From: Rheinheimera aquimaris
GTDB lineage: Bacteria; Pseudomonadota; Gammaproteobacteria; Enterobacterales; Alteromonadaceae
Direction of reading: 5' to 3'
Length of the DNA: 64,000 nucleotides
NCBI RefSeq assembly: GCF_020531985.1
Contig: NZ_JAJAVQ010000002.1
Location: 186,001-250,000, forward strand
A program made the position numbers and the translations under genes. Position 1 is the first letter of the stretch. Each line of letters opens with the position of its first letter. The notes beneath the pieces are model-generated. The model worked only from the letters and a program-made list of their open reading frames with translations. It did no database searches and had not been told where the DNA came from. Below are positions 31,297 to 49,312 of the stretch, piece by piece.

Positions 31297-31917
31297 TCAG
31301 CCTGGCGCTTTAATATTGTTACGAATGCTACAAGGCGGTATTCCGTCGTCCTCGCACAATGTAATTTCTGTATCGTTGTTCTGATGAACAAGACACAGCA
31401 TGTAGCCTGGCAGAGGAAAATGTTTATGCCGGATCTTGCCAGATATGCCATGGCGTAATACTCCAAGCAAGGCGTTGCCACTATACTTGCTATATGCTTC
31501 GGCTAGTGTCCACTGTTGGTAGAAAGTATTCAGGTCCGGTGCATGTTGTAAGGCAGTGTGGCCTTGCTGCAATTGCTTAAACTGTCTTGGTTTTATTTGC
31601 TCGATATCCAGACCGATTTTTTCATTAACACTGATTGCTGCGGCAATAGCTTCTTTTGAATGAGAGAGAGACAAATACCAGTGCTTCACGCCGACTATTA
31701 ATGTTGGAGCCTTGTCTGATGGCAATGATATGGCAATATCATTAGTACCTGTTGCTTGAATGTGTTGCAGCATTTTTCTTACTAATGCCCTGCCATTACA
31801 AAATTGTCTGGCTCTTTTTTCACTTAATGTCTGCGCATATTGCCATTCGGTATCTGTCAGCCAGCTTTGGCAATGCAGTGGTGATAACATTTTCAGGCGA
31901 TAATTAAGCCAAATCAT
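31297..31917 (-). CDS. 4'-Phosphopantetheinyl transferase of the APE cluster
   Basis: 206 residues, Sfp/AcpT-type. Diagnostic motifs: IGLDIE at 101-106 (Mg-binding D and E) and WTLAEAYSK at 136-144 (W-x3-EA-x2-K). It attaches phosphopantetheine from CoA to acyl carrier proteins; the natural targets are the two ACPs at 33.5 and 33.8 kb. It diverges from the cluster and shares its promoter region at 31918-32031. The sequence is somewhat richer in A+T than the cluster genes. Role by analogy with ApeB-type enzymes of APE loci. Confidence 0.88.
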   Translation of the reverse strand: MIWLNYRLKMLSPLHCQSWLTDTEWQYAQTLSEKRARQFCNGRALVRKMLQHIQATGTNDIAISLPSDKAPTLIVGVKHWYLSLSHSKEAIAAAISVNEKIGLDIEQIKPRQFKQLQQGHTALQHAPDLNTFYQQWTLAEAYSKYSGNALLGVLRHGISGKIRHKHFPLPGYMLCLVHQNNDTEITLCEDDGIPPCSIRNNIKAPG

Positions 31918-31957
31918 TTGCTTAGAATTTTTGCCATGCCAAACTCCGGCATTTTAA

Positions 31958-31987
31958 TTTACTTTTGACGCTAACTTTATATATGAT
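31958..31987 (+). promoter_or_regulatory. Probable APE operon promoter
   Basis: TTTACT, 18-base spacer, TATGAT (31982-31987), 45 bases before the first cluster gene. It is the only good -10 in the short divergent gap. A GAAGG ribosome site follows at 32017. Confidence 0.5.
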
Positions 31988-32031
31988 ACCGCGCTTTCGC
32001 TACCGTTGTTTTCGGTGAAGGTAATGACTGC

Positions 32032-32715
32032 ATGGAACTGTTTATAAAATCCTGGGCAATGTGGATGCCGCCGAAACACAACGATGATACCTCGCTCTTT
32101 CCCGAGTTGAAACAAGTACCGGCAATAACCCGGCGTCGTCTGAGCAAACTGACCAAGCTGGCTTTTGATGTGGCGCTGCAGGCTGCTGAACAGCAGTGCG
32201 ATGAACCCTTACCCACTATCTTTGCGTCACGTCACGGTGATTTACACAAAACATTGATGTTATTGCAGCAGCTGGGTAATGGTGAAGAATTATCCCCATC
32301 GCAGTTTGCTCTGTCTGTACACAACGCGATCAGCGGTCAGTTTAGTATCTACAGCCAGAATCAGGCCGACAGTAATGCGATCGCAGCCGGTGCCGACAGC
32401 TTGCACTATGCCGTGCTTGATGCAGCTGCACGTTTTCGCGCTGAGCCCAAACTAAGTCAGCAACTGATTGTTTATGCCGATGAAGCAATACCTGAGCCTT
32501 ATCAGGCATTTTGTCAGGATCCTTCAACGTCGGTTGCGTTAGCGCTGTTATTGCACCGTACGCAGGGACAACCCGTGCACTTTACCCTGTGTGCTGACAA
32601 CGATTCAGAAGCAGAGCCGGACCAGGCAATAAAATTGTTGCCATTTTTGCAGCAGCAAAGCCAACAGCTGACACTTAGCGGAAACAAACGACGCTGGCAG
32701 TGGCAGCGGGTATAA
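32032..32715 (+). CDS. apeC: Ketosynthase-like chain length factor of the APE cluster
   Basis: 227 residues, matching the beta-ketoacyl synthase N-terminal-like proteins that open APE clusters. It keeps traces of the thiolase fold (PTIFASRHGDLHKTLMLLQQL, SPSQFALSVHNAISGQFSIYSQN, AIAAGADSLHYAVLDAAARF) but has no active-site cysteine (the equivalent stretch reads NAIAAGADS) and lacks the C-terminal histidine half. In characterised APE systems (Xenorhabdus, E. coli) ApeC pairs with the ketosynthase ApeO as a chain length factor. First gene of the operon; an ATG eight bases earlier is out of frame. Confidence 0.82.
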   Translation: MELFIKSWAMWMPPKHNDDTSLFPELKQVPAITRRRLSKLTKLAFDVALQAAEQQCDEPLPTIFASRHGDLHKTLMLLQQLGNGEELSPSQFALSVHNAISGQFSIYSQNQADSNAIAAGADSLHYAVLDAAARFRAEPKLSQQLIVYADEAIPEPYQAFCQDPSTSVALALLLHRTQGQPVHFTLCADNDSEAEPDQAIKLLPFLQQQSQQLTLSGNKRRWQWQRV

Positions 32716-32718
32716 CAG

Positions 32719-33504
32719 ATGCAAAAGCTGAATCACCTGTACCGTATTCTGGCGACCGGCCTGTGTTTTGTTGTGTTTGGTATCGGTGCTGTGCTGCTGT
32801 CTGCAACGGTATTGCCGTTGCAGCGCTTAGTTATTTCTGATCCAGAGCGGCGTAAACAAAGAGCGCGTTATATTGTCCATCAGACATTTCGCTTTTTTAT
32901 TAGCCTGATGCACTTTGTTCGGGTGTTTAATTTCGACTTCGCTGCAGCCTCAGTTCTGAAAAACGCGCGCGGCAGAATCATTATTGCTAATCACCCCAGT
33001 TTAATCGATGTGGTCGCCTTGATAGCGATGACACCACAAGCAGATTGTGTTGTTAAAGCACAGTTGTTCCGCAACCCCTTTATCCGCGGTGTAATTAACA
33101 GTACCGGTTATATCAGTAATTCTGATCCCGATAAGCTTTTGGATGATTGCGCTGCATCCTTGCACAAAGGCAATAACCTGATTATTTTCCCGGAGGGCAC
33201 CCGTAGTACCCCGGGTGAACCACTGGCATTTCAGCGCGGCGCAGCCAATATAGCGCTCAGGGCTAACCGGGGTTATCTGGCATTGTATATTCAATGTCAG
33301 CCCAGTACTCTGACCAAGCAGGAGCAATGGTATCAGGTACCAAACAGCAAACCGACTTTGGCTATCCGCTACCTGCGGGACATTCAGCTGACGGATGAGC
33401 TGCAGCAGAGTCAATCTCCTGCTCTTGCTGCCCGGCAGCTGACCAGGGAGCTACAACATTTTTATCAAAAGGCAGTGGACCAACATGGACTCTTTGAAAC
33501 TTGA
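32719..33504 (+). CDS. 1-Acyl-glycerol-3-phosphate-type acyltransferase of the APE cluster
   Basis: 261 residues, PlsC/LPLAT family. One N-terminal membrane segment (ATGLCFVVFGIGAVLLSATVLPL), then the catalytic IIIANHPSLIDVVALIA (H-x4-D) and the substrate motif LIIFPEGTRSTPGEPLAFQRGAANIAL. Inner-membrane acyltransferase that may transfer the aryl polyene chain or a fatty acyl chain to a lipid acceptor. Three bases after the previous stop; its end overlaps the first ACP by 20 bases. Confidence 0.88.
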   Translation: MQKLNHLYRILATGLCFVVFGIGAVLLSATVLPLQRLVISDPERRKQRARYIVHQTFRFFISLMHFVRVFNFDFAAASVLKNARGRIIIANHPSLIDVVALIAMTPQADCVVKAQLFRNPFIRGVINSTGYISNSDPDKLLDDCAASLHKGNNLIIFPEGTRSTPGEPLAFQRGAANIALRANRGYLALYIQCQPSTLTKQEQWYQVPNSKPTLAIRYLRDIQLTDELQQSQSPALAARQLTRELQHFYQKAVDQHGLFET

Positions 33505-33742
33505 ACTTAAACAGTTGATTATCAGTACTCTTGAGCTGGAAGATATTACACCGGACGATATCGATGACGATGCGCCGTTGTTTGTCGATGGCCTGGGCCT
33601 GGATTCAATAGACGCACTTGAGTTAGGGCAGGCACTAAAGAAACAGTACAATATTAAGCCTGACGCTGACTCGGAAAAGAATAAGCAACATTTTGCCAGC
33701 CTGAATACTCTGGCGCAGTATGTTAAGCAGCAACAGCAGTAA
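33485..33742 (+). CDS. apeE: Acyl carrier protein 1 of the APE cluster
   Basis: 85 residues, four-helix ACP with the phosphopantetheine serine in GLGLDSIDALELGQALKKQYN. Acidic N-terminal half (EDITPDDIDDDAPL). It starts within the end of the acyltransferase gene. In characterised APE systems two distinct ACPs carry the starter and the growing chain. The assignment as the first of the two is by gene order. Confidence 0.9.
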   Translation: MDSLKLELKQLIISTLELEDITPDDIDDDAPLFVDGLGLDSIDALELGQALKKQYNIKPDADSEKNKQHFASLNTLAQYVKQQQQ

Positions 33743-33754
33743 GCGGAGCTAACA

Positions 33755-34003
33755 ATGAAAACCCAGCAAGACGTATTTAATCTTCTGCAGCAATTAATGG
33801 TCAAAGAGTTTGAACTCGATGCCAGCCAAATTACACCCGATGCCAACTTATACGAAGATTTGGACCTGGATAGCATTGATGCAGTTGATCTGGTGGTAAA
33901 ACTGCGTGAAATCACCGGTAAGAAAATCGAGCCGGAAGCCTTTAAGTCTGTGCGCACGGTCAATGATGTCGTCAATGCTGTGTATGTATTAATCGAAGCC
34001 TGA
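33755..34003 (+). CDS. apeF: Acyl carrier protein 2 of the APE cluster
   Basis: 82 residues; attachment serine in DLDLDSIDAVDLVVKLREITG. Similar to, but clearly diverged from, ACP 1 (an MKTQQDVFNLLQQLMVKEFELD start replaces MDSLKLELKQLI). Ribosome site AAGCGGAG upstream. Ends in a TGATG overlap with the membrane protein gene, so coupled. Confidence 0.9.
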   Translation: MKTQQDVFNLLQQLMVKEFELDASQITPDANLYEDLDLDSIDAVDLVVKLREITGKKIEPEAFKSVRTVNDVVNAVYVLIEA

Positions 34004-34560
34004 TGCATTTCAGATCTGCACTTGAGATCAGCCTGAAATGTGCCCTGGTGCTTTACCCGCTGTATGTCTGGTGGGCAATGCACCATTGGCATCCGGCGGC
34101 GGCGTTGCTGCCGGTTGCCGGTATAGCGCTAATTAAATCTTTTATCAGTGGTACCGGAGCTGCAAGCCGGGGCTTTTTTCTGCTGACTTGTGCCGGCTTA
34201 TTGCTGGCAATGGGATTTGGACGGGCAGAACACGCCATGTTGTACTATCCAGTTTGGATGAACGCCGGTATGTTGTTGCTTTTTGCCGCGTCGCTTTGGT
34301 TTCCGCCAACGGTGATTGAACGGCTGGCGCGGCTGATGGAAGGTGAACTGGATCACCATGCTGTGGCCTACACCCGCAAGGTAACCCAGGTATGGTGTCT
34401 GTTTTTTCTGTTTAATGGTGCTGTCGCCTTTGCCACGGCCTGGTGGGGAGACTGGGATATCTGGGTGCTGTACAACGGGCTGATTTCGTACATTCTGATG
34501 GGTTTGCTGATGTTTATTGAATGGCAGGTGCGGCGAGTTGTTAAAGCAGCAAAGCGATAG
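34003..34560 (+). CDS. COG4648-type integral membrane protein of the APE cluster
   Basis: 185 residues, about five membrane segments (SLKCALVLYPLYVWWAM, ALLPVAGIALIKSFI, GFFLLTCAGLLLAMGF, YPVWMNAGMLLLFAASLWFPPTVIERLARL, VWCLFFLFNGAVAFATAWWGDWDIWVLYNGLISYILMGLLMFI split by loops). It corresponds to the membrane protein found between the ACPs and the AMP ligase in APE loci; function unknown. The next gene begins inside its end. Confidence 0.82.
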   Translation: MHFRSALEISLKCALVLYPLYVWWAMHHWHPAAALLPVAGIALIKSFISGTGAASRGFFLLTCAGLLLAMGFGRAEHAMLYYPVWMNAGMLLLFAASLWFPPTVIERLARLMEGELDHHAVAYTRKVTQVWCLFFLFNGAVAFATAWWGDWDIWVLYNGLISYILMGLLMFIEWQVRRVVKAAKR

Positions 34561-35872
34561 CTGGCAACTGGCGTGGCCGGATGCCAGCCGGCCTGTATTT
34601 ACCGATGGTGTCGCCGTAGTGACTGCTCAGCAGTGGCAACAGCAACTGCAGGCCGTTAAACGTTTTATCGCTATGCAACCCGGCGATACGGTGTTGCTGT
34701 ATCAGGCCGACCCGATACTATTTTCTGTCTGGTTTATCGCCTTGAGTCAGCTTGGCAAACATATCGTACTGGCACCAGACGGGCAGCCTGATACGCTGCA
34801 ACTTGCTGGCGCGCAGTGCGACTGGCAGGCGCCCCAAGCCGCTGTCAGGGCCGACACTGTTGCTTATCAGCCGCGGCTGTTGCTGCAAAACAGTTGTCGG
34901 GTCAGTTTCTTTACTTCTGGCTCCACTGGCCTGCCCAAATTGGTCACTAAACGCTTGTCACAATTACTGCTCGAAGTACAAACCTTGCAGCAGCAATTTG
35001 GTGTGGCATTAAGCGGGCAAACTCTGTTTGCTGCAACAGTGTCGTTTCAGCATATCTATGGTTTGCTGTTTCGTATGTTGTGGCCACTATGTTATGGCTT
35101 CACACAGCATCGCACACAGCTGAGTTATCTGGAGCAGTGGCAGGCGCTGCTGCAGCAGTATGATGTGGTGCTGGTTGCCAGCCCGGCGCATCTTGCCAGG
35201 TTTGATGATGTGGCGATTCTGGCACCTTATACCAGCCGGTGTCAGCGTATATTCAGCTCGGGCGGCCCGCTAAATGATGTTGTACCGCCGCGCTATGTTG
35301 CGGCGTTACAACAAGCCCCCACTGAAGTATTTGGTAGCACTGAAACCGGCGGCATTGCCTATCGTCAGCGTAATACAGCAGATGTTGGCTGGCAGGTATT
35401 TGATGGTGTGTCGGTAAGCCAGGGGCCAGAGCAGGCATTGCAGGTGAGCTCGGCTTATCTTGATAGCGCGGGTTGGTTTACCACGTCAGATCAGGTAGCG
35501 CTTGTGACAGAGCGCTCATTCAGGTTAATCGGCCGGCTGGACCGCATTGTGAAGATTGAAGAGAAACGCTTGTCGCTACCTGAGCTGGAACAATACTGCC
35601 TTAACAGCGTATTGGTAAGCCAGGTAGCTGCCGTGGTGCTGACAACAACAAAGCCCCAGCTGGCGCTGGCAATAGTGCTGAGTAATCAGGGCGAACAGCT
35701 ATTAAAACTGCACGGTAAACTGGTGCTGAATCAGCAAATAAAGCAGCATTTATTGCAGCGTTTTGAGCGGGTGTTGCTACCGAGAAAGTTTCGTTATGTG
35801 GCCAGCCTGCCATACAATCAACAAGGCAAGTTACCCAGGTCAGAATTGGAAGCACTTTTTGAGCATGACTAA
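34517..35872 (+). CDS. apeH: AMP-dependent aryl/acyl ligase of the APE cluster
   Basis: 451 residues if begun at TTG 34517; TTG 34538, with AGG 10 bases upstream, is an equally good start. ANL-fold adenylating enzyme: SFFTSGSTGLPKLVTKR binds ATP phosphates, VFGSTETGGI is the A5 motif, FTTSDQ and RLDRIVKIEEKRLSL follow, and the catalytic lysine is in YNQQGKLPRSEL. It activates the aromatic starter acid as an acyl-AMP and loads it onto an ACP. In this cluster the natural substrate is the product of the ammonia-lyase at 37.9 kb. Ends eight bases inside the dehydratase gene. Confidence 0.88.
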   Translation: MNGRCGELLKQQSDSWQLAWPDASRPVFTDGVAVVTAQQWQQQLQAVKRFIAMQPGDTVLLYQADPILFSVWFIALSQLGKHIVLAPDGQPDTLQLAGAQCDWQAPQAAVRADTVAYQPRLLLQNSCRVSFFTSGSTGLPKLVTKRLSQLLLEVQTLQQQFGVALSGQTLFAATVSFQHIYGLLFRMLWPLCYGFTQHRTQLSYLEQWQALLQQYDVVLVASPAHLARFDDVAILAPYTSRCQRIFSSGGPLNDVVPPRYVAALQQAPTEVFGSTETGGIAYRQRNTADVGWQVFDGVSVSQGPEQALQVSSAYLDSAGWFTTSDQVALVTERSFRLIGRLDRIVKIEEKRLSLPELEQYCLNSVLVSQVAAVVLTTTKPQLALAIVLSNQGEQLLKLHGKLVLNQQIKQHLLQRFERVLLPRKFRYVASLPYNQQGKLPRSELEALFEHD

Positions 35873-36212
35873 TTTATTTCCTGCAGTGCAGCTATTGCAG
35901 CACTGCGATAACAAAGTTGAGTTACAGCTGGATATCCGGGCCGACATCGCCTACTTCGAAGGTCATTTCCCGAATGCGCCGGTATTGGCGGGTGTGACTC
36001 AGCTGCATTGGGTGGTGCAGTACTGTAAACAGTATTTTCCGCAACTGGCAGCTGTTAGCAGCGTTGAAGTGCTGAAGTTTCAGTTGATGATCCGGCCAAA
36101 CGACAGCTTAACTTTGTTGCTGGAGCGCACGGCTGATGCAACAGTGCTGTTTAGTTATAGCCGTGAGGGTAGCAAAGTCGCGTCTGGTCGGCTGAAATGG
36201 ACGCTGGCGTAG
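35865..36212 (+). CDS. apeI: 3-Hydroxyacyl-ACP dehydratase (hot-dog fold) of the APE cluster
   Basis: 115 residues from ATG 35865, in the overlap with the ligase gene; the open frame extends further upstream but only inside that gene. FabA/FabZ-like: FEGHFPNAPVLAGVTQLHWVV contains the catalytic H of GHFP. It lacks the acidic partner helix of a full FabZ, as expected for ApeI-type subunits, which form a heterodimeric dehydratase with ApeP (45.7 kb). Dehydrates beta-hydroxy intermediates to build conjugated double bonds. Confidence 0.85.
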   Translation: MTNLFPAVQLLQHCDNKVELQLDIRADIAYFEGHFPNAPVLAGVTQLHWVVQYCKQYFPQLAAVSSVEVLKFQLMIRPNDSLTLLLERTADATVLFSYSREGSKVASGRLKWTLA

Positions 36213-36213
36213 T

Positions 36214-36960
36214 ATGAACTGCTGTTTTCTGATCCCGATATATAACCACCATGAAACCATTGCTGCTACGGTGCAGCAACTGCTGCCGTTTGGCTTTGCC
36301 GTTATTATTGCCGATGATGGCTCAGATGCGGCAACAAAAGCTGTGCTGGCTGAGTTGGCGCAAAGATACGCACAGGTAGAGATTATTACCCTGCCACAAA
36401 ACGGCGGCAAAGGCGCAGCTATGTGCGCTGCTATGTTAAGGGCGCATCAGCTGGGGTTTAGCCACGGTTTGCAGATAGATGCTGATGGGCAGCACGATGT
36501 TGCCGATGTCCCTAAGTTCTGGCAGGCAGCAGCGAAGTGTCCTGCAGCGCTTATCAGCGGTGCGCCGGTATATGACAGTTCTATGCCGCTGGGGCGGAAG
36601 ATTGGCCGCGAGATCACCCATTTCTGGGTACGGATTGAAACGCTATCATTACAAATCAAAGACTCCATGCTGGGGTTTCGGGTTTACCCACTGCAAAGCT
36701 GTGTTGATATTATTCAAACGCACCGCATTGGCCAGAGGATGGATTTTGATATCGAAATTATGGTGCGGCTGTTCTGGCATGGTGTGCCGGTGCAGTTTCT
36801 GCCGACCAAGGTGATTTATCCTGTGGGCGGCCGCTCGCATTTTAATATGCTGAAAGACAACTGGCTGATCAGCAAAATGCATACCCGGTTGTTTTTTGGC
36901 ATGTTATGGCGGTTGCCCGGATTGTTGAAACGTCATTGGCAAGTAAAGTATGAAAACTGA
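36214..36960 (+). CDS. Family 2 glycosyltransferase of the APE cluster
   Basis: 248 residues, GT-A fold: CCFLIPIYNHHETIAATVQQLL, VIIADDGSDAATKAVL, GGKGAAMCAAML and the metal-binding LQIDADGQHD. No membrane segment except perhaps the C-terminal hydrophobic part near residue 230. Likely adds a sugar to the polyene or its lipid carrier at the cytoplasmic face. Starts one base after the dehydratase stop and overlaps the next gene by 11 bases. Confidence 0.88.
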   Translation: MNCCFLIPIYNHHETIAATVQQLLPFGFAVIIADDGSDAATKAVLAELAQRYAQVEIITLPQNGGKGAAMCAAMLRAHQLGFSHGLQIDADGQHDVADVPKFWQAAAKCPAALISGAPVYDSSMPLGRKIGREITHFWVRIETLSLQIKDSMLGFRVYPLQSCVDIIQTHRIGQRMDFDIEIMVRLFWHGVPVQFLPTKVIYPVGGRSHFNMLKDNWLISKMHTRLFFGMLWRLPGLLKRHWQVKYEN

Positions 36961-37933
36961 TAGCGGACACTGGGCAACCAAGCAGGAAAACGGCAGCTAT
37001 CATGCTATCCGGCTGTTACTACTGTTATACCGCTTTGGCGGCAAATGGCTGATTATGATAAGCCTTGCGCCTGTGCTGGCCTATTTTTTTGTTAAAGACG
37101 GTAGTGCCCGTCGTGCTTCACTGCAGTTTTTGCAACAGTTGCACCGCTTTAAAGCTGAGCAGAGCCCTTTTAAACAGAAGCCCGGTTACTGGCTGAGCTA
37201 TCAGCATTTCTGGCATTTTGCGTTGGCTGCACTGGCGAAAATAGACAGCTGGCTTGGCCGCATTGCGCAGGACAGTGTGGTGTATGGCGGCAGTGCAACA
37301 TTTGAACAGATCAGGCAATCGGGTAAAGGCGCCATACTGATTGGCAGCCATTTGGGAAATATTGAAGTTTGCCGGGCGTTGGTGCAAACCAAATACCCGG
37401 TAAGGATAAACATTCTGGCGCACACCAAGCATACGGCAGCTTTTAACCGTATTTTGAAAGAGAGTAACAGTGCAGTTGATCTGAACCTGATTGAAGTAAC
37501 AGAGCTGACACCCGCGGTAAGTGTGATGCTGAGTGAGTGTATTGAACGCAATGAACTGGTGGTGATTGTTGGCGATCGTATTTCGGCACAAGCGCCTGAG
37601 CGCGCGGTCTGGGCTGAGTTTCTCGGCAAGCCTGCGCCCTTTGCAGTCGGGCCCTGGATACTGGCCAGCTTGCTGCAATGCCCGGTTTACCTGATGTTTT
37701 GCATGAAGCAAACCGGTGGTTATAACCTGATGTTTGAACCCTTCGCTGAGCAACTGCGTTTACCGCGTAAACAGCGGCAACAGGTATTAACACAAGTGGT
37801 GCAGCGTTACGCCGCTGAGCTTGAGCGAGTAGCCTGCCAATACCCGCTACAATGGTTTAATTTTTACGATTTCTGGCAATTGCCCCTAACGACACAACAA
37901 AAGGAACACCGTGGTGAACACAGCAGTAACTGA
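36950..37933 (+). CDS. LpxL/HtrB-type lysophospholipid acyltransferase of the APE cluster
   Basis: 327 residues of the lipid A acyltransferase (LABLAT) family: N-terminal membrane segment (LLLYRFGGKWLIMISLAPVLAYFFV), then GAILIGSHLGNIEVCRAL with the catalytic H-x4-E, ELVVIVGDRISAQAPER and a C-terminal basic/aromatic stretch. Such enzymes acylate lipid head groups at the inner membrane. Together with the glycosyltransferase it implies a glycosylated, acylated aryl-polyene lipid. Its last 23 bases overlap the ammonia-lyase gene. Confidence 0.87.
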   Translation: MKTDSGHWATKQENGSYHAIRLLLLLYRFGGKWLIMISLAPVLAYFFVKDGSARRASLQFLQQLHRFKAEQSPFKQKPGYWLSYQHFWHFALAALAKIDSWLGRIAQDSVVYGGSATFEQIRQSGKGAILIGSHLGNIEVCRALVQTKYPVRINILAHTKHTAAFNRILKESNSAVDLNLIEVTELTPAVSVMLSECIERNELVVIVGDRISAQAPERAVWAEFLGKPAPFAVGPWILASLLQCPVYLMFCMKQTGGYNLMFEPFAEQLRLPRKQRQQVLTQVVQRYAAELERVACQYPLQWFNFYDFWQLPLTTQQKEHRGEHSSN

Positions 37934-39506: not shown

Positions 39507-39921
39507 TGCACCGAAAAGTGCCGAAGTGATCATTGATGTGCCGTTTTTTGACGTTGATGCGATGCAGGTGGTCTGGCATGGCCACTATGTAAAATATCTG
39601 GAAGTGGCGCGCTGCGAGCTGCTGCGCAGTTTTCACTATGACTACAACGAGATGTCGGAATCAGGCTACATGTGGCCTATCGTTGATATGTCGCTGAAAT
39701 ATGTCGGTTCTGCGCTGTTTGCGCACAAAATTAAGGTAACAGCCACCTTGAAAGAGTGGGAAAACCGGCTGCGTATTGATTATCTGATCACCGACGTCGC
39801 TTCCGGTAAAAAACTGACCAAAGCCAGTACGACACAGGTGGCAATCGATATGAAAACCAGACAGATGTGCTTTGAATCGCCAGCTGTTTTGTTTGAAAAG
39901 CTGGGGTATGCCAAACCATGA
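39496..39921 (+). CDS. apeK: Hot-dog thioesterase of the APE cluster
   Basis: 141 residues from ATG 39496, eleven bases before the lyase stop; the ORF upstream lies within the lyase. 4-Hydroxybenzoyl-CoA thioesterase-like: PFFDVDAMQVVWHGHYVKYLEVARCELLR carries the D-x-M-x-V-H pattern and catalytic aspartate. Could release or hydrolyse the polyene thioester, or edit misloaded chains. Ends in a four-base overlap with the LolA-like gene. Confidence 0.87.
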   Translation: MPNNAPKSAEVIIDVPFFDVDAMQVVWHGHYVKYLEVARCELLRSFHYDYNEMSESGYMWPIVDMSLKYVGSALFAHKIKVTATLKEWENRLRIDYLITDVASGKKLTKASTTQVAIDMKTRQMCFESPAVLFEKLGYAKP

Positions 39922-40454
39922 AGCGTTTAATACGGTTGTTAAGTGTAATGCTTGTTGCCGCTGTTTTGCCGCTGCAGGCCGCTGCTGACAATACGTTATT
40001 ACCCTGGCAGCCGGTGCAGGGACGCTTTGTTTTTACCCAGCTAAAGCAGCTGCAGGGGCTGCCGGTGCCGCTGCGCAGCAGTGGCACCATTGAACTGACA
40101 GATAATGAAATGCTCTGGCATACCACTACGCCGGTAGATAGCAAGTTATTGATCACCGCGGCAGGGGTTAGTCAGTGGCAGCAACAGCAGTTTGTTGCTG
40201 TAGCAGGCAGTGAGTTTGTCGGTCAGCTAATGCTGGCGGTATTGCAGCAAGATATAGACTTTATTACGCAACAGTTCGGCATACAGCAAGCTGACAATCA
40301 CTGCTCCCTGTTGCGGCCGGTTGAGGCGCCACTGAACCAGTTTTTCAGCCAGATTGAGCTGTGTGGTGAAACCCAGCTTAGCAGCCTGACATTGCAGGAA
40401 ACAAACGGCAATACTACACAAATAACGCTGCAACCCGAGGCCGAGGCACAGTGA
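39918..40454 (+). CDS. LolA-like periplasmic carrier of the APE cluster
   Basis: 178 residues with a signal peptide (RLIRLLSVMLVAAVLPLQAAA). The rest fits the LolA/LolB-like fold seen in APE loci: QGRFVFTQLKQLQGLPVPLRSSGTIEL, MLWHTTTPVDSKLLI, then a Gln-rich stretch and QTEL-like strands. By analogy with LolA it could ferry the hydrophobic product across the periplasm from the MMPL exporter to the outer membrane. Coupled by four-base overlaps to both neighbours. Confidence 0.82.
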   Translation: MKRLIRLLSVMLVAAVLPLQAAADNTLLPWQPVQGRFVFTQLKQLQGLPVPLRSSGTIELTDNEMLWHTTTPVDSKLLITAAGVSQWQQQQFVAVAGSEFVGQLMLAVLQQDIDFITQQFGIQQADNHCSLLRPVEAPLNQFFSQIELCGETQLSSLTLQETNGNTTQITLQPEAEAQ

Positions 40455-42727: not shown

Positions 42728-43955
42728 TGTGGTAATTATTGGTGCCGGTCCGGCGGGTAGCTGTGCCGGCGCTATGCTGGCCAAAGCCGGTAAGCAGGTG
42801 CTGTGTATTGAAAAACAGCATTTCCCCCGCTTTAGTATTGGCGAAAGTTTATTGCCGCATTGTATGGAGTTTCTGGCGCAGGCCGGTTTGGAAAATGCTC
42901 TGCGGCAACAGGCTGAAACATTGGGGTATCAGTTTAAAAATGGCGCTGCTTTTTTAAAAAATGGTGTGCACAGTCAGTTTGATTTCACTGATAAATTTAG
43001 CCCCGGCCCCGGCACAACCTTTCAGGTAAGACGGGCGTCGTTTGACAAGCTACTGGCCGATGAAGCACAAAAACAGGGCTTGCGGATCCATTATGGTATT
43101 AGCGTAACAGCCTTTGATAATACTGATCCGGCAACAGCAATACTGACGGTGCAGGATGAGCAGCAGCAAAGCAGTCAGATCAGTGCTGGCTTTGTACTTG
43201 ATGCCAGCGGTTTTGGTCGGGTATTACCGCGCTTACTGGATTTGGAGGTGCCGTCTGATTTTCCGGTGCGTCAGGCCTGTTTCTGTCATATCCGTGACGG
43301 TATTCGCGCGCAGAGTTTTGACCGCAATAAAATTTTGATCACTGTACATGATGAATACCCGGATGTCTGGTTCTGGTTGATCCCGTTTAGTGATGGTACC
43401 GCCAGCCTGGGTGTGGTGGGCAAAACCAGCCGTTTTAATGACGGCATCAGTGCTGCAGACAACTTATGGCAGCATGTAAAGCAAACCGGCGAGCTGGCAG
43501 CGTTGCTGGCAGAGGCAGAACCGATAAATACCGCACAAAGCCTGGTAGGCTATTCTGCCAATGTACGTCAGCTGTATGGCGACAACTTTGCGTTGCTGGG
43601 TAACGCCGGTGAGTTTCTCGACCCGGTGTTTTCGTCCGGTGTCACTATAGCGCTGCGCTCAGCCGCTACTGCTGTGCCGTTGGTATTACAGCAGCTAAAC
43701 GGCGAACAACCAGACTGGCAGCAGCAGTACAGTGTGCCGCTGCGTAAGGGTATTACCACCTTCCGCCGCTTTGTCGAAGCCTGGTACGATGGCCGGTTTC
43801 AGGACATTATTTTCAGCAAATCCCGCAATAGCACTATTACGGCGATGATTAGCGCCATACTGGCAGGGTACGCATGGGATGAGAAAAACCCCTATGTAGC
43901 AGAAACAGAGCGGCGTCTTAACGTGTTAAGGGAAGTATGTCTCGATTCAGTCTGA
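42705..43955 (+). CDS. FAD-dependent oxidoreductase with flavin-halogenase motifs, APE cluster
   Basis: 416 residues from GTG 42705. FAD loop GAGPAGSCAG at 13-22, PRFSIGESLLP at 41-51, and a Lys78 in FKNGAAF where the catalytic lysine of phenol/pyrrole halogenases sits. Two further motifs are present: WFWLIP (222-227; consensus W-x-W-x-I-P) and FLDPVFSSG (304-312; consensus F-x2-P-x2-S-x-G), the pattern used to separate halogenases from ordinary FAD hydroxylases. It needs reduced FAD from a separate reductase, none of which is in the cluster. Possible role: halogenation (or hydroxylation) of the aryl head. Activity is unproven; similar proteins occur in APE loci without known halogenated products. 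Confidence 0.83.
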   Translation: MKSVQHFDVVIIGAGPAGSCAGAMLAKAGKQVLCIEKQHFPRFSIGESLLPHCMEFLAQAGLENALRQQAETLGYQFKNGAAFLKNGVHSQFDFTDKFSPGPGTTFQVRRASFDKLLADEAQKQGLRIHYGISVTAFDNTDPATAILTVQDEQQQSSQISAGFVLDASGFGRVLPRLLDLEVPSDFPVRQACFCHIRDGIRAQSFDRNKILITVHDEYPDVWFWLIPFSDGTASLGVVGKTSRFNDGISAADNLWQHVKQTGELAALLAEAEPINTAQSLVGYSANVRQLYGDNFALLGNAGEFLDPVFSSGVTIALRSAATAVPLVLQQLNGEQPDWQQQYSVPLRKGITTFRRFVEAWYDGRFQDIIFSKSRNSTITAMISAILAGYAWDEKNPYVAETERRLNVLREVCLDSV

Positions 43956-44500
43956 TTTTTATTTTACTGCTGACAGGCTGCCAGTTACTGAGCGTTAAAC
44001 CCGATAGTCAGGTACCATTGGGTACGGGCTACTACCAGCTAAGCGATAGCTGGCCCGGCCCCGCACAGCAATTATTACAGCAGGCAAGCTGGAGTGATGG
44101 TACTGAGCAACATCAATTTACCATCAGCGCTTTACTGCGCTCTGATGTGACATTGCTGGTGGCGCTGTCACCAATGGGGCAAGAGCTGTGGCGCGTGCAG
44201 TACAAGCGCGGCCACCAATTGTCGGTTTCCGGTATAGCACCTTTTAATCAGCCGCAGTTTGCCAGGTTGTTACTGGCGCAAATGCAACTGGCTGTATTAG
44301 ATAGCGCGCAGCTGAGCGGCAGACTGCATGCGCTGAAGCTTGAACAAGACAGCAGCAGCCGGGTTGTGCTGGATGATAAGGGCAATACTGTACTGCAGAT
44401 AGCACAGCCACAGCAGCTTGGCCCTGGCCAGACTATAACCATTACAGCGACGGCTTACAGCCTGAAAATCACCACCTTACAGCAGGACTTTTTACCATGA
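43937..44500 (+). CDS. DUF3261 lipoprotein of the APE cluster
   Basis: 187 residues with a lipobox (SLIFILLLTGCQLLS, cysteine at residue 15), so outer- or inner-membrane anchored. Contains the DUF3261 pattern (GQELWRVQYKRGHQLSV near 90, LLLAQMQLAVLDSAQL). LolB-like in size and context: an outer-membrane lipoprotein that would receive the product from the LolA-like carrier. Starts 19 bases before the flavoprotein stop and ends ATGA-overlapped with the ketosynthase. Confidence 0.82.
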   Translation: MSRFSLIFILLLTGCQLLSVKPDSQVPLGTGYYQLSDSWPGPAQQLLQQASWSDGTEQHQFTISALLRSDVTLLVALSPMGQELWRVQYKRGHQLSVSGIAPFNQPQFARLLLAQMQLAVLDSAQLSGRLHALKLEQDSSSRVVLDDKGNTVLQIAQPQQLGPGQTITITATAYSLKITTLQQDFLP

Positions 44501-45681
44501 CCCCGACCACGCTAACGGCACTGGGTATTTGTTGTGCCCTGGGGCAATCGAAACAGCAGGTCTGGCAGAATGCTATCAGTGCCAGTCGCGCCGGTATGCA
44601 GTGGCGTAGCGACTTGTTGCAGTCTGGCGAGGCTATAGTGGTAGGACAAGTTGCTGGCCAGCTGCCGGATCTGTCGGCCTGGCCGGCGCAGTTTCAAAGC
44701 CGCAATAATCAGCTGGCGGCGCTGGCGTATCAGCAAATTGCTGCCGAGGTTGCAGCACTGCGCCAGCAGATGGGCAGTGACAGGATAGCGGTGATTATCG
44801 GCAGCAGTACGTCAGGTATTGCTGAGGGTGAGCAGGCGATGCAGCATTATGTGCAGCAGCAGCGCTTTCCGGCAGGTTTTCACTATCAGATGCAGGAGAT
44901 GATAGCGCCGGCGGAGTTTATTGCGCAGCTGGCTAATGTCAGCGGGCCTTGCTATGCCATTTCAACCGCGTGCTCTTCCAGCGCCAGAGCGCTGATGAGC
45001 GCGCGTAACTTAATACTAGCTGATATGGCAGACGCTGTTATTGTGGGCGGTGTCGACTCGCTGTGCCGCTTAACGCTAAATGGCTTTAAAGCGCTGGAGT
45101 CCGTATCTGCCGGCTTTTGCCAGCCTTTTAGTGTCAACCGTGACGGCATTAATATCGGTGAAGGTGCAGCACTGTTTGTCATGCAGAAACACCAGCCTGG
45201 CATTGCGTTGTTGGGCGCTGCAGCCTCTTCTGATGCGCATCATATGTCTGCACCTCATCCGCAGGGCCGCGGCGCGGTGGACGCTATTTTACGGGCATGC
45301 GAAGACGCTGCTATAAAACCGGCCCAGCTCGATTACATAAACCTGCATGGTACAGCAACACCTTTAAATGACAGCATGGAAAGTCAGGCGCTGGTGCAGC
45401 TGGCCTTAACGCAGGTTGCCGCCAGTTCCAGCAAAGCAATGACCGGCCATACACTTGGCGCCGCCGGGGCAATAGAAGCGGCGCTTTGCTGGCTTACATT
45501 GTCGCCTTATAATAGCGACAACCATTTGATCCCACATTGCTGGGATGAACAGCAAGACCCCGATTTACCTGCGTTGCAACTGGTGCAACCCAAACAGAGG
45601 CATAAGGTAACGCACTGCCTGTCTAACTCGTTTGCGTTTGGCGGTAATAACGTGGCATTAATATTAGGTAAAACGCTATGA
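44497..45681 (+). CDS. apeO: Beta-ketoacyl-ACP synthase (first KS) of the APE cluster
   Basis: 394 residues, FabB/F-type thiolase fold. Nucleophile Cys159 in AISTACSSSARAL, histidines in NLHGTATPLNDSMES and MTGHTLGAAGAIEAAL. The active site is complete, unlike the paired chain length factor at 32 kb. Carries out Claisen condensation with malonyl-ACP during polyene growth. Four-base overlaps at both ends place it in a coupled KS-DH-KR-KS block. Confidence 0.9.
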   Translation: MTPTTLTALGICCALGQSKQQVWQNAISASRAGMQWRSDLLQSGEAIVVGQVAGQLPDLSAWPAQFQSRNNQLAALAYQQIAAEVAALRQQMGSDRIAVIIGSSTSGIAEGEQAMQHYVQQQRFPAGFHYQMQEMIAPAEFIAQLANVSGPCYAISTACSSSARALMSARNLILADMADAVIVGGVDSLCRLTLNGFKALESVSAGFCQPFSVNRDGINIGEGAALFVMQKHQPGIALLGAAASSDAHHMSAPHPQGRGAVDAILRACEDAAIKPAQLDYINLHGTATPLNDSMESQALVQLALTQVAASSSKAMTGHTLGAAGAIEAALCWLTLSPYNSDNHLIPHCWDEQQDPDLPALQLVQPKQRHKVTHCLSNSFAFGGNNVALILGKTL

Positions 45682-46130
45682 TCACGGGTTACAGCATCGA
45701 GCAGGTATTGCCACACAGGTCACCGATGATTCTGCTGGATAATTTTATTGAAGCGGGTGCAGATTACGCTGTTTGCAAAGTAACGATCTCAGAGCACAGC
45801 CAGTTTTATGATGCCGCTAGTCAAACGGTACCCGCTTACGTTGGTATTGAATATATGGCACAAACGATTGCCGCCTATGCTGGTGCAAGTAATCTGGCCA
45901 AAGGCGGCGCGGTTAAAATTGGCTTTTTGCTTGGTTGTCGTAAGTATCAGCCAGAAGTAACCGCTTTTACGCTTGGTACCGAGCTGACTATTACCGCGAC
46001 GGAGCTGGTAACCGAAGATAATGGTTTAAGCGTGTTTGACTGCAGTATCATGCAGCAACAACAGTTATTAGTCAGCGCCAGATTAAATGTGTTTCAACCT
46101 GACAATCATCAGGCATGGCTAACGGAGTAG
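45678..46130 (+). CDS. apeP: 3-Hydroxyacyl-ACP dehydratase (second DH) of the APE cluster
   Basis: 150 residues. IEQVLPHRSPMILLDNFIEAG has the FabA/Z-type catalytic histidine and VGIEYMAQTIAAYAGAS the acidic partner helix (glutamate), so this is the catalytically more complete of the two dehydratase subunits. Probably pairs with the 115-residue subunit at 35.9 kb. Overlaps the preceding KS stop by four bases; its end lies two bases before the ketoreductase ATG. Confidence 0.88.
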   Translation: MITGYSIEQVLPHRSPMILLDNFIEAGADYAVCKVTISEHSQFYDAASQTVPAYVGIEYMAQTIAAYAGASNLAKGGAVKIGFLLGCRKYQPEVTAFTLGTELTITATELVTEDNGLSVFDCSIMQQQQLLVSARLNVFQPDNHQAWLTE

Positions 46131-46132
46131 TA

Positions 46133-46855
46133 ATGAAAAGAGTATTGGTCACAGGTTCTGGCCGTGGTATCGGAAAAGCCATTGCACTGCAACTGGCGGC
46201 ACAGGGTTTTGATATCGCCGTACATTGCCGTTCAGACCGCGCCAGCGCAGATGCGGTTGTTGCCGCCATCACTGCACTTGGCCGTCAGGCCAGTTTACTG
46301 CAGTTTGATGTCGCCGACCGCAGTGGTGCAAAAGCGGCGCTGGAGCAGGATATTGCGCAGCATGGTGCTTATTACGGTGTGGTATGCAACGCTGGCATTA
46401 CCCGTGACGGCGCTTTTCCTGCGCTGACTGAGCAGGACTGGGATCAGGTGATCCATACCAACCTTGACGGCTTTTATAATGTGTTGCACCCGGCGGTTAT
46501 GCCGATGATCCAGCTACGCAGTGGTGGCCGCATTGTCACTATTGCCTCAGTATCAGGTGTTGCCGGTAACCGTGGTCAGGTTAATTACAGCGCGTCAAAA
46601 GCAGGTTTAATCGGTGCTACCAAGGCGTTAGCGCTGGAACTGGCAAAGCGTAAAATCACGGTTAACTGCGTGGCGCCGGGCCTTATTGATACCGACATGG
46701 TGCAGGATATCGCCACTGAAGAGCTGATGAAAATGATCCCACTGCGACGTGCCGGCACGGCAGATGAGGTTGCAGCAACAGTGGCATTCTTATTTTCTGA
46801 ACCGGCGGCCTACATTACCCGGCAGGTTATCTCTGTAAACGGCGGGATGGTGTAA
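46133..46855 (+). CDS. apeQ: 3-Ketoacyl-ACP reductase of the APE cluster
   Basis: 240 residues from ATG 46133 (ACGGAG upstream; an ATG at 46115 is possible but lies before it). FabG-type SDR: VTGSGRGIGKAIALQL, VCNAGITRDGAFPAL, catalytic VNYSASKAGLIGATKALALEL, CVAPGLIDTDMV. Reduces beta-ketoacyl-ACP before dehydration. The stop overlaps the next ATG by one base. Confidence 0.93.
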   Translation: MKRVLVTGSGRGIGKAIALQLAAQGFDIAVHCRSDRASADAVVAAITALGRQASLLQFDVADRSGAKAALEQDIAQHGAYYGVVCNAGITRDGAFPALTEQDWDQVIHTNLDGFYNVLHPAVMPMIQLRSGGRIVTIASVSGVAGNRGQVNYSASKAGLIGATKALALELAKRKITVNCVAPGLIDTDMVQDIATEELMKMIPLRRAGTADEVAATVAFLFSEPAAYITRQVISVNGGMV

Positions 46856-48084
46856 TGAAGCGGGTGGTTGTCACAGGCATGTCGGTTATTACCGCACTGG
46901 GAGATTCCTGGGCTGATTTTAAGCAGCAGTTGTGTCAGGGGAAAAATGCCGTTCGTGTTATGCCGCAGTGGGATAAATTCAGCAGCATGAGCACCCGGCT
47001 TGCCGCGCCTGTTCAGCATTTTCAGCGGCCAGAGCATTACTCGCGTAAAATGGTGCGTTCAATGGGCCGGGTATCTCTGATGGCAACGCGCACCACTGAG
47101 CTGGCACTGGAGGCGGCAGGTTTGCTCGGCCATCCGGCGCTCAGCGATGGCCGCTGCGGTATAGCTTATGGCTCATCCACCGGCAGTACCGACCCTATTC
47201 TTGCCTTTGGCCGCATGATGGATACCGGTGATATGACCGGTGTCACGGCAACCAGTTATATTCAGATGATGGCGCATACTACAGCGGTAAACGTAGGGGT
47301 ATTTTTTGGTATAAAAGGCCGGGTCTATACCACCAGTTCGGCCTGTACATCCGGCTCGCAAGGTATTGGCTATGCCTATGAAGCCATAAAATACGGCAAG
47401 CAAACCCTGATGGTCGCCGGTGGCGCCGAAGAGTTGTGTGCCACCGAAGCCGCTGTTTTTGACACTTTGTATGCTACCAGTACTAAAAATGACACGCCGG
47501 ATTTAACCCCCCGGCCTTTTGATCAGGCCCGTGATGGTCTGGTAATCGGCGAAGGCGCCGGCACACTGATCCTGGAAGAACTGGAGCATGCGCTGGCGCG
47601 TGGCGCCACTATTTACGCCGAAGTAGTAGGTTTTGGCACTAACTCTGATGGGGTGCATGTTACCCAGCCGACAGACAGCACGATGGAAACTGCGATGCGT
47701 CTGGCACTGGACGATGCAGCCGTGACTGCGGCAGATATCGGCTACATCAATGCTCATGGCACAGCCACCGACAGAGGGGATGTTGCTGAGAGTCAGGCTA
47801 CAGCGCGGATATTTGGCAGTAACACGCCTATCAGTTCATTAAAAAGCTATCTGGGTCATACCCTGGGTGCCTGTGGTGCAATTGAAAGCTGGGCCAGCAT
47901 CCACATGATGCAGGACGACTGGTATGCGCCGACATTAAACCTGACGCAACCTGATATGGCCTGTGGCGAGCTGGATTATATTATGCAGCATGGGCGAGAG
48001 CTGCGGGCTGACTATGTGATGAGCAATAACTTCGCATTTGGCGGCATCAATACCTCACTGATTTTTAAACGGTGGCTTGGTTAA
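46855..48084 (+). CDS. apeR: Beta-ketoacyl-ACP synthase (second KS) of the APE cluster
   Basis: 409 residues. Cys164 in TSSACTSGSQGIGYAYEAIK, histidines in INAHGTATDRGDVAES and YLGHTLGACGAIES. Longer and more FabF/FabB-like than the first KS; the cluster thus has two full KS plus a CLF. In APE systems this KS is thought to handle initiation or extension separately from ApeO-ApeC. Preceded in operon by the ketoreductase; followed directly by the outer-membrane protein gene. Confidence 0.92.
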   Translation: MKRVVVTGMSVITALGDSWADFKQQLCQGKNAVRVMPQWDKFSSMSTRLAAPVQHFQRPEHYSRKMVRSMGRVSLMATRTTELALEAAGLLGHPALSDGRCGIAYGSSTGSTDPILAFGRMMDTGDMTGVTATSYIQMMAHTTAVNVGVFFGIKGRVYTTSSACTSGSQGIGYAYEAIKYGKQTLMVAGGAEELCATEAAVFDTLYATSTKNDTPDLTPRPFDQARDGLVIGEGAGTLILEELEHALARGATIYAEVVGFGTNSDGVHVTQPTDSTMETAMRLALDDAAVTAADIGYINAHGTATDRGDVAESQATARIFGSNTPISSLKSYLGHTLGACGAIESWASIHMMQDDWYAPTLNLTQPDMACGELDYIMQHGRELRADYVMSNNFAFGGINTSLIFKRWLG

Positions 48085-48888
48085 ATGCGGTTGATTGCGG
48101 CAGTAATGCTTTTGTGCCTTGGATTGGCAATCCCGGTATTAGCAGAGGACGTTTCGTGGCAGCTGGGGGCCGGAGTGGCATACAGCCAGCTACCTGATTA
48201 CCCGGGCGCCTCACAGCGGCAACATTATTTGCTGCCCTTTCCGTACTTTACCTACCGTAGTGACAAAATTACGCTTAACCGTTCAGAAGCCTTAGGTCAG
48301 CTTTTTGCCAATGGCAATTTTACGTTGAACCTCAGCCTGGCTGCGGCATTACCAGTGAATAGTGACGACAATGCTGCCCGGCAAGATATGCCAGATCTGC
48401 TGTGGTTGACGGAAATTGGGCCCACAGCCGATTATCAGCTATTTCAAAGCGACACCAGCCGGTTGCAGTTGAGGTTGCCTGTGCGCAAAGCAATTGCGAC
48501 CGATATTCAGCACTGGCAAGATGCCGGCTGGCGCGTTGAGCCGCAACTGCGCTGGCAGCAGAACTTAGTGAGCAATGTGCACTGGACCAGCCAATTCGCG
48601 ATAAACTGGAGTAACAAGCGCTACCACCAGTATCTGTATGGCGTGGCACCAGTTTATGCGACTGCTGAACGACCGCAATACGATGCCAGCTCCGGTTATG
48701 CCGGCTGGCGCTGGTCAAATGGCGTAACCTGGCAGCGCAAGCGTTGGTGGCTGGGCGCTTTTATTCGTTACGATAATTTGCAGGGGGCCAGCTTCGAGCA
48801 CAGCCCACTGCTGCAACGTGAACACAATGTCAGTTTTGGTGTAGCGCTGGCATGGATATTTAAACAACAAGGACATTACTATGAATAA
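48085..48888 (+). CDS. MipA/OmpV family outer-membrane protein
   Basis: 267 residues with signal peptide (LIAAVMLLCLGLAIPVLAE, cleavage after AE/EDV). Beta-barrel style alternation with aromatic turns (YPGASQRQHYLLPFPYFTYRSDKITLNR, VEPQLRWQQNLVSNVHWTSQFAINWSN, WWLGAFIRYDNLQGASFE) and a C-terminal hydrophobic strand (GVALAWIFK) match MipA/OmpV proteins. Immediately follows the second KS and overlaps the next gene by eight bases, so it is part of the APE operon, perhaps as the outer-membrane anchor or pore for the pigment. Confidence 0.8.
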   Translation: MRLIAAVMLLCLGLAIPVLAEDVSWQLGAGVAYSQLPDYPGASQRQHYLLPFPYFTYRSDKITLNRSEALGQLFANGNFTLNLSLAAALPVNSDDNAARQDMPDLLWLTEIGPTADYQLFQSDTSRLQLRLPVRKAIATDIQHWQDAGWRVEPQLRWQQNLVSNVHWTSQFAINWSNKRYHQYLYGVAPVYATAERPQYDASSGYAGWRWSNGVTWQRKRWWLGAFIRYDNLQGASFEHSPLLQREHNVSFGVALAWIFKQQGHYYE

Positions 48889-49312
48889 AGTTATGACGAT
48901 ACTGGCGTTATCTGCAGCTGTGATAAGTGGTGCAGCCCAGGCTCGTAACGATGTACTGACATTACCGCTGGACAGCATTATTGGCACTGAGAAAGCAAAA
49001 CAGGCGTTGCACGAAGTACCAGTGTACTTCGCTGGTCAGAACCACCCGGCCATCAGCAAAAACTGGGGCGAAGTATCAACCAGCCGGAAAACCAATGCTT
49101 TTGGTAAGTCAGACGAAGAAGCTTGCCAGTGGGTATTGTTGTCGGCATTAAAAGTGTTGCAGGAAGCAGCACAACAGCGTGGTTACGATGCGGTAGTGAA
49201 TATCCGTTCAAACTATCAGAATAAAGAATTTACCAGCGCAACTGAATTTCAGTGTGGCGCCGGCGCCATCATGGCCGGTGTGGCCTTGAAAGGTGATTTA
49301 GTTAAGTTCTGA
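48881..49312 (+). CDS. Small secreted protein at the end of the APE operon
   Basis: 143 residues with a signal peptide (KVMTILALSAAVISGAAQA). The mature part reads NDVLTLPLDSIIGTEKAKQAL, VPVYFAG, DEEACQWVLLSALKVLQEAAQQRGYDAVVNIRSNY, ATEFQCGAGAIMAGVALKG, similar to small periplasmic proteins often filed as 'excinuclease ATPase subunit' for no good reason; the GYDAVVNIR..GVALKG part resembles YbjQ-type heavy-metal-binding-like folds. It has two cysteines. No enzyme function can be stated. Followed by a terminator, so it is the last gene of the operon. Confidence 0.72.
   Translation: MNKVMTILALSAAVISGAAQARNDVLTLPLDSIIGTEKAKQALHEVPVYFAGQNHPAISKNWGEVSTSRKTNAFGKSDEEACQWVLLSALKVLQEAAQQRGYDAVVNIRSNYQNKEFTSATEFQCGAGAIMAGVALKGDLVKF

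Follow-up and report, generated by a model that had tools for sequence, protein, structure and literature searches.

Within a 64,000-nucleotide stretch of the Rheinheimera aquimaris genome (contig NZ_JAJAVQ010000002.1, positions 186,001 to 250,000 of the forward strand; henceforth ‘the window’, on a contig labelled C9 below, from a genome of 4.23 Mb), positions 31297-49312 hold a closely packed gene cluster which raises a twofold question. What would such a locus produce, and how unusual are its aromatic ammonia-lyase and its flavin adenine dinucleotide (FAD) enzyme? To the first, the answer from sequence is that the locus almost certainly encodes an aryl polyene (APE) pathway. To the second, the answer is that the combination of lyase with FAD enzyme is not new in kind. 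An earlier note on this DNA had presented the two as additions at this locus, but both instead belong regularly to a cluster type that is widespread, and the locus is an ordinary member of that type. The two together are published for bromoalterochromides. As an explanation of the whole, a complete APE lipid cluster of ordinary, lyase-plus-flavoenzyme type is one we hold with good confidence.

The cluster and its genes

The open reading frames (ORFs) of the cluster are as follows, with ‘Ec’ indicating the E. coli CFT073 counterpart and percentages indicating BLASTP identity:

31297..31917, minus: 4'-phosphopantetheinyl transferase (PPTase), presumed activator of both acyl carrier proteins (ACPs); PF17837/PF01648 borderline, E about 1e-5
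32032..32715, plus: ApeC-type chain length factor, short ketosynthase (KS)-N domain; PF13723 197 bits; EcApeC 29%
32719..33504, plus: ApeD, lysophospholipid-type acyltransferase (LPLAT); PF01553; EcApeD 38%
33485..33742, plus: ACP ApeE; PF00550; EcApeE 62%
33755..34003, plus: ACP ApeF; PF00550; EcApeF 57%
34003..34560, plus: ApeG membrane protein; no Pfam; EcApeG 48% over 112 aa
34517..35872, plus: ApeH acyl-ACP/CoA ligase; PF00501; EcApeH 32%
35763..36212, plus: ApeI dehydratase subunit; PF22818; EcApeI 29%
36214..36960, plus: family 2 glycosyltransferase (GT2), first half of ApeJ; PF00535; EcApeJ N-half 52%
36950..37933, plus: LpxL-type acyltransferase, second half of ApeJ; PF03279; EcApeJ C-half 39%
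37911..39506, plus: aromatic amino acid ammonia-lyase, probably tyrosine; PF00221 532 bits
39448..39921, plus: ApeK thioesterase (TE); PF13279; EcApeK 50%
39918..40454, plus: ApeL, LolA-like periplasmic carrier; NCBIfam LolA weak, 25.6 of 112 bits; EcApeL 31%
40451..42727, plus: ApeM, MMPL/RND-like exporter; no Pfam; EcApeM 28% over 666 aa
42705..43955, plus: FAD enzyme, putatively of flavin-dependent halogenase type; FAD/halogenase Pfam families, motifs, predicted fold
43937..44500, plus: ApeN, DUF3261 LolB-like lipoprotein; PF11659 66 bits; same position as EcApeN
44497..45681, plus: ApeO ketosynthase, ApeC partner; best solved matches 6qsp_A, 7f28_B; EcApeO 43%
45678..46130, plus: ApeP dehydratase subunit; PF22817 77 bits; EcApeP 33%
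46115..46855, plus: ApeQ ketoreductase (KR), a short-chain dehydrogenase/reductase (SDR); best solved matches 6nrp/7caw AbApeQ, 360 bits; EcApeQ 63%
46855..48084, plus: ApeR, second ketosynthase; best solved matches 4ewg, 7f27 AbApeR; EcApeR 63%
48085..48888, plus: MipA/OmpV outer-membrane protein; PF06629 134 bits
48881..49312, plus: 143-aa presumed secreted protein, operon end; no Pfam or NCBIfam match

These identities are concordant across a Pfam profile search (at E 0.001), BLASTP against the E. coli CFT073 ape proteins, and sequence searches of the Protein Data Bank (PDB), and the APE components which the earlier note had listed are all found, coordinates included. Its count of about 20 coupled genes holds as well, 21 being present, but the MipA gene and the 143-aa gene were missing from its inventory. 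The divergent PPTase it named likewise is found, but with Pfam support which is borderline, that is, 26.4 bits on PF17837 (just under the cut-off of 27) and 25.2 on PF01648 (just over 25). Pfam is silent on four of the 21 genes, i.e., the ApeG-like, LolA-like, MMPL-like, and last genes, with BLASTP placing the first three as E. coli ApeG, ApeL, and ApeM. For ApeC the sole solved-structure matches are 6qsp_B and 7f28_A, both of them ApeO-ApeC entries. Pfam recognizes no methyltransferase among the 21 genes, in agreement with the earlier note, nor did scanning of the 22 cluster ORFs show any nonribosomal peptide synthetase (NRPS).

The 21 plus-strand ORFs extend over 32032-49312 with intergenic gaps never exceeding 12 bases, and 114 bases separate them from the diverging PPTase gene. 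Larger overlaps, of 44, 59, and 110 bases, involve ORFs drawn from the first TTG, and therefore the true starts of the ApeH, ApeI, and ApeK ORFs probably lie downstream of those drawn. In terms of base composition there is no sign in 2-kb windows of recent import of the cluster, with GC content of 0.47-0.54 as compared with 0.46-0.57 for the rest of the window. A promoter scan returned 17 sites versus 19.2 expected and is given no weight. Adjoining the PPTase gene, and not counted in the cluster, is a catalase-related protein with a signal-like N-terminus (30244-31224).

What characterizes an APE type II polyketide synthase is present, i.e., the ApeO-ApeC pair together with the second ketosynthase, ApeR, as well as two ACPs, ApeH, ApeI, ApeP, and ApeQ. 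So too, for lipid assembly and export, are ApeD, ApeJ, ApeK, ApeL, ApeM, and, via PF11659 and position only, ApeN. Relative to the E. coli CFT073 ape cluster (PMC8253772), the window keeps the order of every gene between ApeC and ApeR inclusive, with 15 of 18 E. coli proteins matched by BLASTP (E 1e-3 or better). EcApeN has no BLASTP match in the window, its counterpart being assigned by DUF3261 (PF11659) along with position. The E. coli cluster possesses ApeA and the methyltransferase ApeB, whereas the window has neither, and ApeJ, which is fused in E. coli, in the window is split into glycosyltransferase and acyltransferase. Conversely, the window has the lyase gene inserted between ApeJ and ApeK, the FAD gene inserted between ApeM and ApeN, the MipA and 143-aa genes closing the operon, and an accompanying PPTase gene, with lyase, FAD enzyme, MipA, and PPTase all absent from the E. 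coli cluster. That this is a complete APE lipid gene set, as the earlier note proposed, is supported, and genes for outer-membrane export are present as in E. coli. Chance is excluded as an explanation of the cluster by its collinearity with that of E. coli and by the recurrence of its gene order in many further genomes.

Proposed pathway

From the observed gene content, gene order, homology, motifs, and predicted fold we infer every reaction of the following pathway. The ammonia-lyase would convert L-tyrosine to 4-coumarate, which ApeH would load onto an ACP. ApeR and ApeO-ApeC would then elongate this ACP-bound starter with malonyl units, ApeQ would reduce, and ApeI/ApeP would dehydrate, giving rise to a conjugated polyene. 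That polyene would be freed by ApeK and incorporated into a lipid by ApeD along with the GT2/acyltransferase pair, with ApeM, ApeL, ApeN, and perhaps MipA taking the lipid to the outer membrane. The FAD enzyme would halogenate the phenol ring ortho to its hydroxyl, using a flavin reductase supplied from outside of the cluster. APE head groups are described as open to methylation or halogenation (PMC8253772).

Distribution of the cluster type

How common are the lyase and FAD genes with APE clusters? An answer comes from an even sample of 148 genomes across the order Enterobacterales, chosen independently of the FAD gene. Kept were FAD matches of at least 430 bits and lyase matches of at least 62% identity, with ‘near’ meaning within 25 kb of ApeP; left out were FAD fragments (G001 and G069, in which the gene survives as fragments only), HutH-type matches of about 30-36%, one 42% lyase (G027), and weaker FAD-family matches. 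ApeP is found in 60 of the 148 genomes, at 61 loci. Near ApeP are the lyase gene at 45 of these loci, the FAD gene at 24, and both at 22. At 16 loci there is a nearby lyase gene and no kept FAD gene, at seven the lyase gene is nearby with the FAD gene elsewhere in the genome, and at two the FAD gene is without a nearby lyase gene, one of which (G017) has its lyase gene on another contig. The remaining 14 have neither nearby, and no FAD gene elsewhere. Looked at in the other direction, ApeP is present in 46 of 46 lyase genomes and in 31 of 32 FAD genomes.

By family, 14 have the lyase in all of their ApeP genomes and six have it in none, many families being represented by one or two genomes; Fisher tests of this split ignore kinship and are not taken as proof. 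Standalone FAD genes number eight, seven in genomes possessing ApeP and one (G027) not. Within five of these regions (L086, L087, L088, L089, and L091, from genus g9 and G014) no other ORF matches the window's ape genes, and the few standalone neighbors which were viewed are, by eye, housekeeping- or stress-like. These counts by family and across the order suggest a core role for the lyase in this cluster type, with the FAD gene as an optional tailoring gene.

A second collection consists of loci found with the FAD protein, which drew 95 relatives from named genomes, 80 of which were kept. Having been found via the FAD gene and query peptide patterns, these 80 loci are no measure of the frequency with which that gene is missing from APE clusters. 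The lyase gene is seen in 60 of the 80, with absences in part reflecting short contigs, and in 52 of the 59 which show both ApeR and ApeM. The order LPLAT-ACP-ACP-ApeG-ApeH-ApeI-GT2-acyltransferase-lyase-TE-LolA-MMPL-FAD-lipoprotein-KS-ApeP-KR-KS recurs, with small changes, in Idiomarina, Colwellia, Shewanella, Pseudoalteromonas, Acinetobacter, Pseudomonas, and Stutzerimonas; in Vibrio-type loci it is rearranged. Pairwise distances, taken for seven genes each over 51 loci plus the window, correlate between any two of the genes at r 0.91-0.97. Such values would be expected had lyase and FAD genes mostly travelled with the cluster, though vertical descent alone would give the same correlations. 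As to the operon's end, MipA has homologues in just three of the 80 loci. The 143-aa protein has them in 33 of the 80, and in 32 of the 59 with ApeR and ApeM. In A. baumannii a protein of unknown function adjoins ApeR (PMC8358021). It is possible that the 143-aa protein is an overlooked APE envelope component.

The FAD enzyme

A GxGxxG motif, a WxWxIP motif, and a conserved lysine are marks of flavin-dependent halogenases. The window's FAD enzyme displays G13xGxxG18, K78, W222xWxIP227, and D306PVFSSG312, with GxGxxG, WxWxIP, and the lysine aligning with those of PltA, CmlS, Mpy16, and FasV. The claim of the earlier note, an FAD enzyme carrying both halogenase motifs, stands up, and indeed the lysine as well as WxWxIP are kept in all 80 relatives, with G13 and G15 kept in 77 and the other three having gaps there. 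The nearest solved relative by sequence is 3nix, which is uncharacterized, and the next seven are halogenases (113-155 bits). An AlphaFold2 model (predicted local distance difference test score of 93.8) has as its nearest folds 3nix and then Bmp2, PltA, ChlB4, and Mpy16, which is a halogenase-family fold, and seven of eight halogenases rank above hydroxylases. On the CmlS model the enzyme reaches 155.7 (cut-off 900), and on PF04820 85.4 (cut-off 21), a family which five of 14 control genomes, including E. coli and three archaea, pass as well.

The FAD enzyme might instead be a ring hydroxylase or other flavin oxidoreductase of APE tailoring, with the pigment then non-halogenated, and this is a serious contender, if at somewhat less than even chances. 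The name of 3nix (flavoprotein/dehydrogenase) points to such a non-halogenase role, and weighing also against halogenation is the Azoarcus APE cluster, which has a gene annotated as halogenase (arcA) and a pigment proposed to be non-brominated (PMC3949708). Standing against a hydroxylase or oxidoreductase are the retention of the halogenase lysine and WxWxIP in all 80 relatives, the halogenase identity of the seven solved relatives which follow 3nix, and the ranking by fold. From sequence and model together, the FAD enzyme is, by a modest preference, a flavin-dependent halogenase. Halogenation of the pigment of this particular strain is possible, at a little under even chances.

The idea that halogenation substitutes for methylation was rejected, since methyltransferase families occur near the FAD gene in relatives. 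Two different families of S-adenosylmethionine (SAM) methyltransferase are involved, one in 10 loci, mainly Pseudomonas, and the other in seven, mainly Vibrio (families U13 and U15, a single representative of either having been run against Pfam), which suggests lineage-specific head-group decoration. Examples are L073:11077-11976 (Pseudomonas-type) and L027:8903-9976 (Vibrio-type). Elsewhere in the R. aquimaris genome are two strong matches to the tryptophan-halogenase family (C9:331738-333096 and 612188-613534, at 620 and 624 bits).

The ammonia-lyase and the starter

Aromatic lyases, per the supporting text of PMC3992019, have Ala-Ser-Gly as their 4-methylideneimidazol-5-one (MIO) triad, with Gln replacing at motif 2 the Glu of histidine ammonia-lyases (HALs). 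The window lyase has ASG at 159-161, the dyad F99-H100, and NQD at 431, with Gln (NQDKVS), as aligned by eye, where histidine lyases carry Glu, in keeping with both parts of this rule. Among the 60 relatives found within the 80 loci, NQDKVS is present in all and ASG in 59, with one gap. On two HutH models the lyase scores 396/387 bits, under the cut-offs of 524/539, and the genome's other member of the family scores 617/585, above those cut-offs, and 245 on the BagA/FevW model. Judged by its residues and scores, the window lyase is aromatic rather than of histidine type, as the earlier note had it, and therefore a 4-coumaroyl starter, i.e., one of the hydroxycinnamoyl kind, is likely. That the lyase would feed the APE starter is quite probable.

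The lyase's substrate is graded apart from this role because a Phe-first dyad occurs in phenylalanine lyases too. By the same supporting text, the first residue of the dyad is His in tyrosine ammonia-lyases (TALs) and Phe or His in phenylalanine ammonia-lyases (PALs). The relatives have Phe-His in 57 of 60, Tyr-His in two, and a gap in one. FlxA is a proven TAL, with 1010-fold tyrosine preference, and yet it too is without the expected TAL/PAL motif 1 (PMC3992019). On TAL models the window lyase scores 402 for BagA/FevW (cut-off 1000) and 344 for FlxA (cut-off 700). A tyrosine ammonia-lyase is the most economical reading of the sequence and is likely, with phenylalanine as the alternative substrate.

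An alternative for the starter is 4-hydroxybenzoate (4-HBA), made from chorismate by UbiC as in E. coli, with the lyase used otherwise, e.g., for a free coumarate pool. Three points weigh on that side or otherwise against a start from tyrosine-derived coumarate. The window's Phe-His dyad lacks the His-first TAL marker and would also fit a PAL. Chorismate lyase, UbiC, is encoded in the genome, which would allow a 4-hydroxybenzoyl start. Lastly, Acinetobacter APE enzymes accept 4-HBA in vitro (PMC8041823), which speaks against an exclusive coumaroyl start.

An A. nosocomialis locus (L018:1-15889) has the window's gene order, including both lyase and FAD genes, differing in that ApeH and ApeI are fused, as reported for A. 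baumannii (PMC8041823), where in the window they are separate. Its ApeO matches A. baumannii 7f28_B at 767 bits over 394 residues, and its ApeR 7f27_A at 854 bits over 408 residues. By analogy, the A. baumannii locus of the crystal structures may also carry the lyase. The papers describing those structures (PMC8041823, PMC8358021; 7F27, 7F28, 7CAW) give 4-hydroxybenzoate as the starter. In their main texts ‘lyase’ and ‘halogen’ occur zero times, as do ‘coumar’ in that of PMC8358021 and ‘tyrosine’ in that of PMC8041823.

Against a 4-hydroxybenzoate start, the lyase gene sits inside the operon, all 46 lyase genomes of the order sample have ApeP, and lyase distances track those of polyene genes (r 0.95-0.97, 51 loci plus the window), as would those of any co-inherited genes. 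Against a free coumarate pool, photoactive yellow protein, another coumarate user, was rejected as a candidate, having no match in the genome. On balance a 4-hydroxybenzoate start is unlikely here. Ligase family models are uninformative as a test of starter, with EcApeH, a 4-HBA enzyme, and the window ligase sharing TIGR02372 as best model (75 and 87 bits, respectively); NCBIfam, that is, does not separate coumarate-type from 4-HBA-type ligases for ApeH. A coumaroyl start and a 4-hydroxybenzoyl start lead to one carbon skeleton, differing by a malonyl unit, and are therefore distinguishable only by labelling or mutants.

An ester of the polyene with a dialkylresorcinol, of flexirubin/arcuflavin type, is highly improbable and was rejected, as the DarB-like ketosynthase which might suggest it (C9:280127-281221, equally L106:8119-9297; 332 bits) is divergent, falling under the DarB (550) and StlD/DarB (450) cut-offs, and lies in another neighborhood about 45 kb downstream, among DUF6999, haem-oxygenase-like, and otherwise unmatched genes where DarA was not recognized (it was not sought genome-wide), with the lyase also well under the FlxA cut-off. 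In the order sample, DarB matches are stronger (448-522 bits) in six genomes, every one of which has ApeP as well.

Published precedents

No study of the Rheinheimera-type locus was recognized in the literature searched, from which subscription papers fall outside. In the papers covered, the E. coli, Xenorhabdus, and Acinetobacter models of APE synthesis use a 4-hydroxybenzoate starter. In Chitinophaga pinensis, by contrast, flexirubin synthesis begins its aryl polyene with a TAL and a coumarate ligase, and that cluster, like the window, has ammonia-lyase, ligase, LolA, acyltransferase, glycosyltransferase, and exporter genes (PMC3992019). Flexirubin differs in being a dialkylresorcinol ester.

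For bromoalterochromides of Pseudoalteromonas, the product is brominated and the genes include the altA lyase, the altC ligase, altD, altG, altH, and the altN halogenase, the latter's role being proposed (PMC7333567). As with the window there is an aromatic lyase, ligase, ACP, KS, dehydratase, SDR, and flavin-dependent halogenase, AltN being likened here by description rather than by sequence, and the side chain has been called an aryl polyene (PMC7551054). The alt polyene, however, is joined to an NRPS lipopeptide (altKLM), whereas the window locus is without NRPS.

Xanthomonadin clusters (PMC3691225, PMC3949708) resemble the window in combining APE-type genes with a halogenase gene, a likeness drawn from published descriptions, but have 3-hydroxybenzoate as starter, unlike the coumaroyl start proposed here. 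Xanthomonas clusters have the halogenase gene and pigments carrying 0-2 Br, and Lysobacter, as described in the same source, has neither halogenase gene nor bromine (PMC3691225). The Azoarcus arcuflavin cluster shares with the window a MltA-interacting protein gene (arcC, MipA) in addition to arcA (PMC3949708). Clostridial flavoaffinins incorporate label from Phe and Tyr (PMC11839114).

Significance

The locus by itself adds one more member to a very common pigment family, and what weight it has possibly lies in the pattern behind it. That is, in the order sample most ApeP loci (45 of 61) have the version with a lyase, as set against models which are hydroxybenzoate-started. Amino-acid aryl starters as such are already known, i.e., from flexirubin (PMC3992019), as suggested by altA (PMC7333567), and from labelled flavoaffinins (PMC11839114). 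Were the lyase pattern borne out chemically, starters and head groups would have to be predicted anew for many APE clusters. A broader proposal, speculative and rather doubtful at present, is that a large part of gammaproteobacterial APE clusters, the Acinetobacter type of the crystal structures included, make tyrosine-started, ring-halogenated polyene lipids of the outer membrane, in place of the non-halogenated lipids with a 4-hydroxybenzoate start known from E. coli, with the FAD family (including 3nix) constituting a distinct clade of APE halogenases which has been gained, lost, and moved out of the cluster independently of it.

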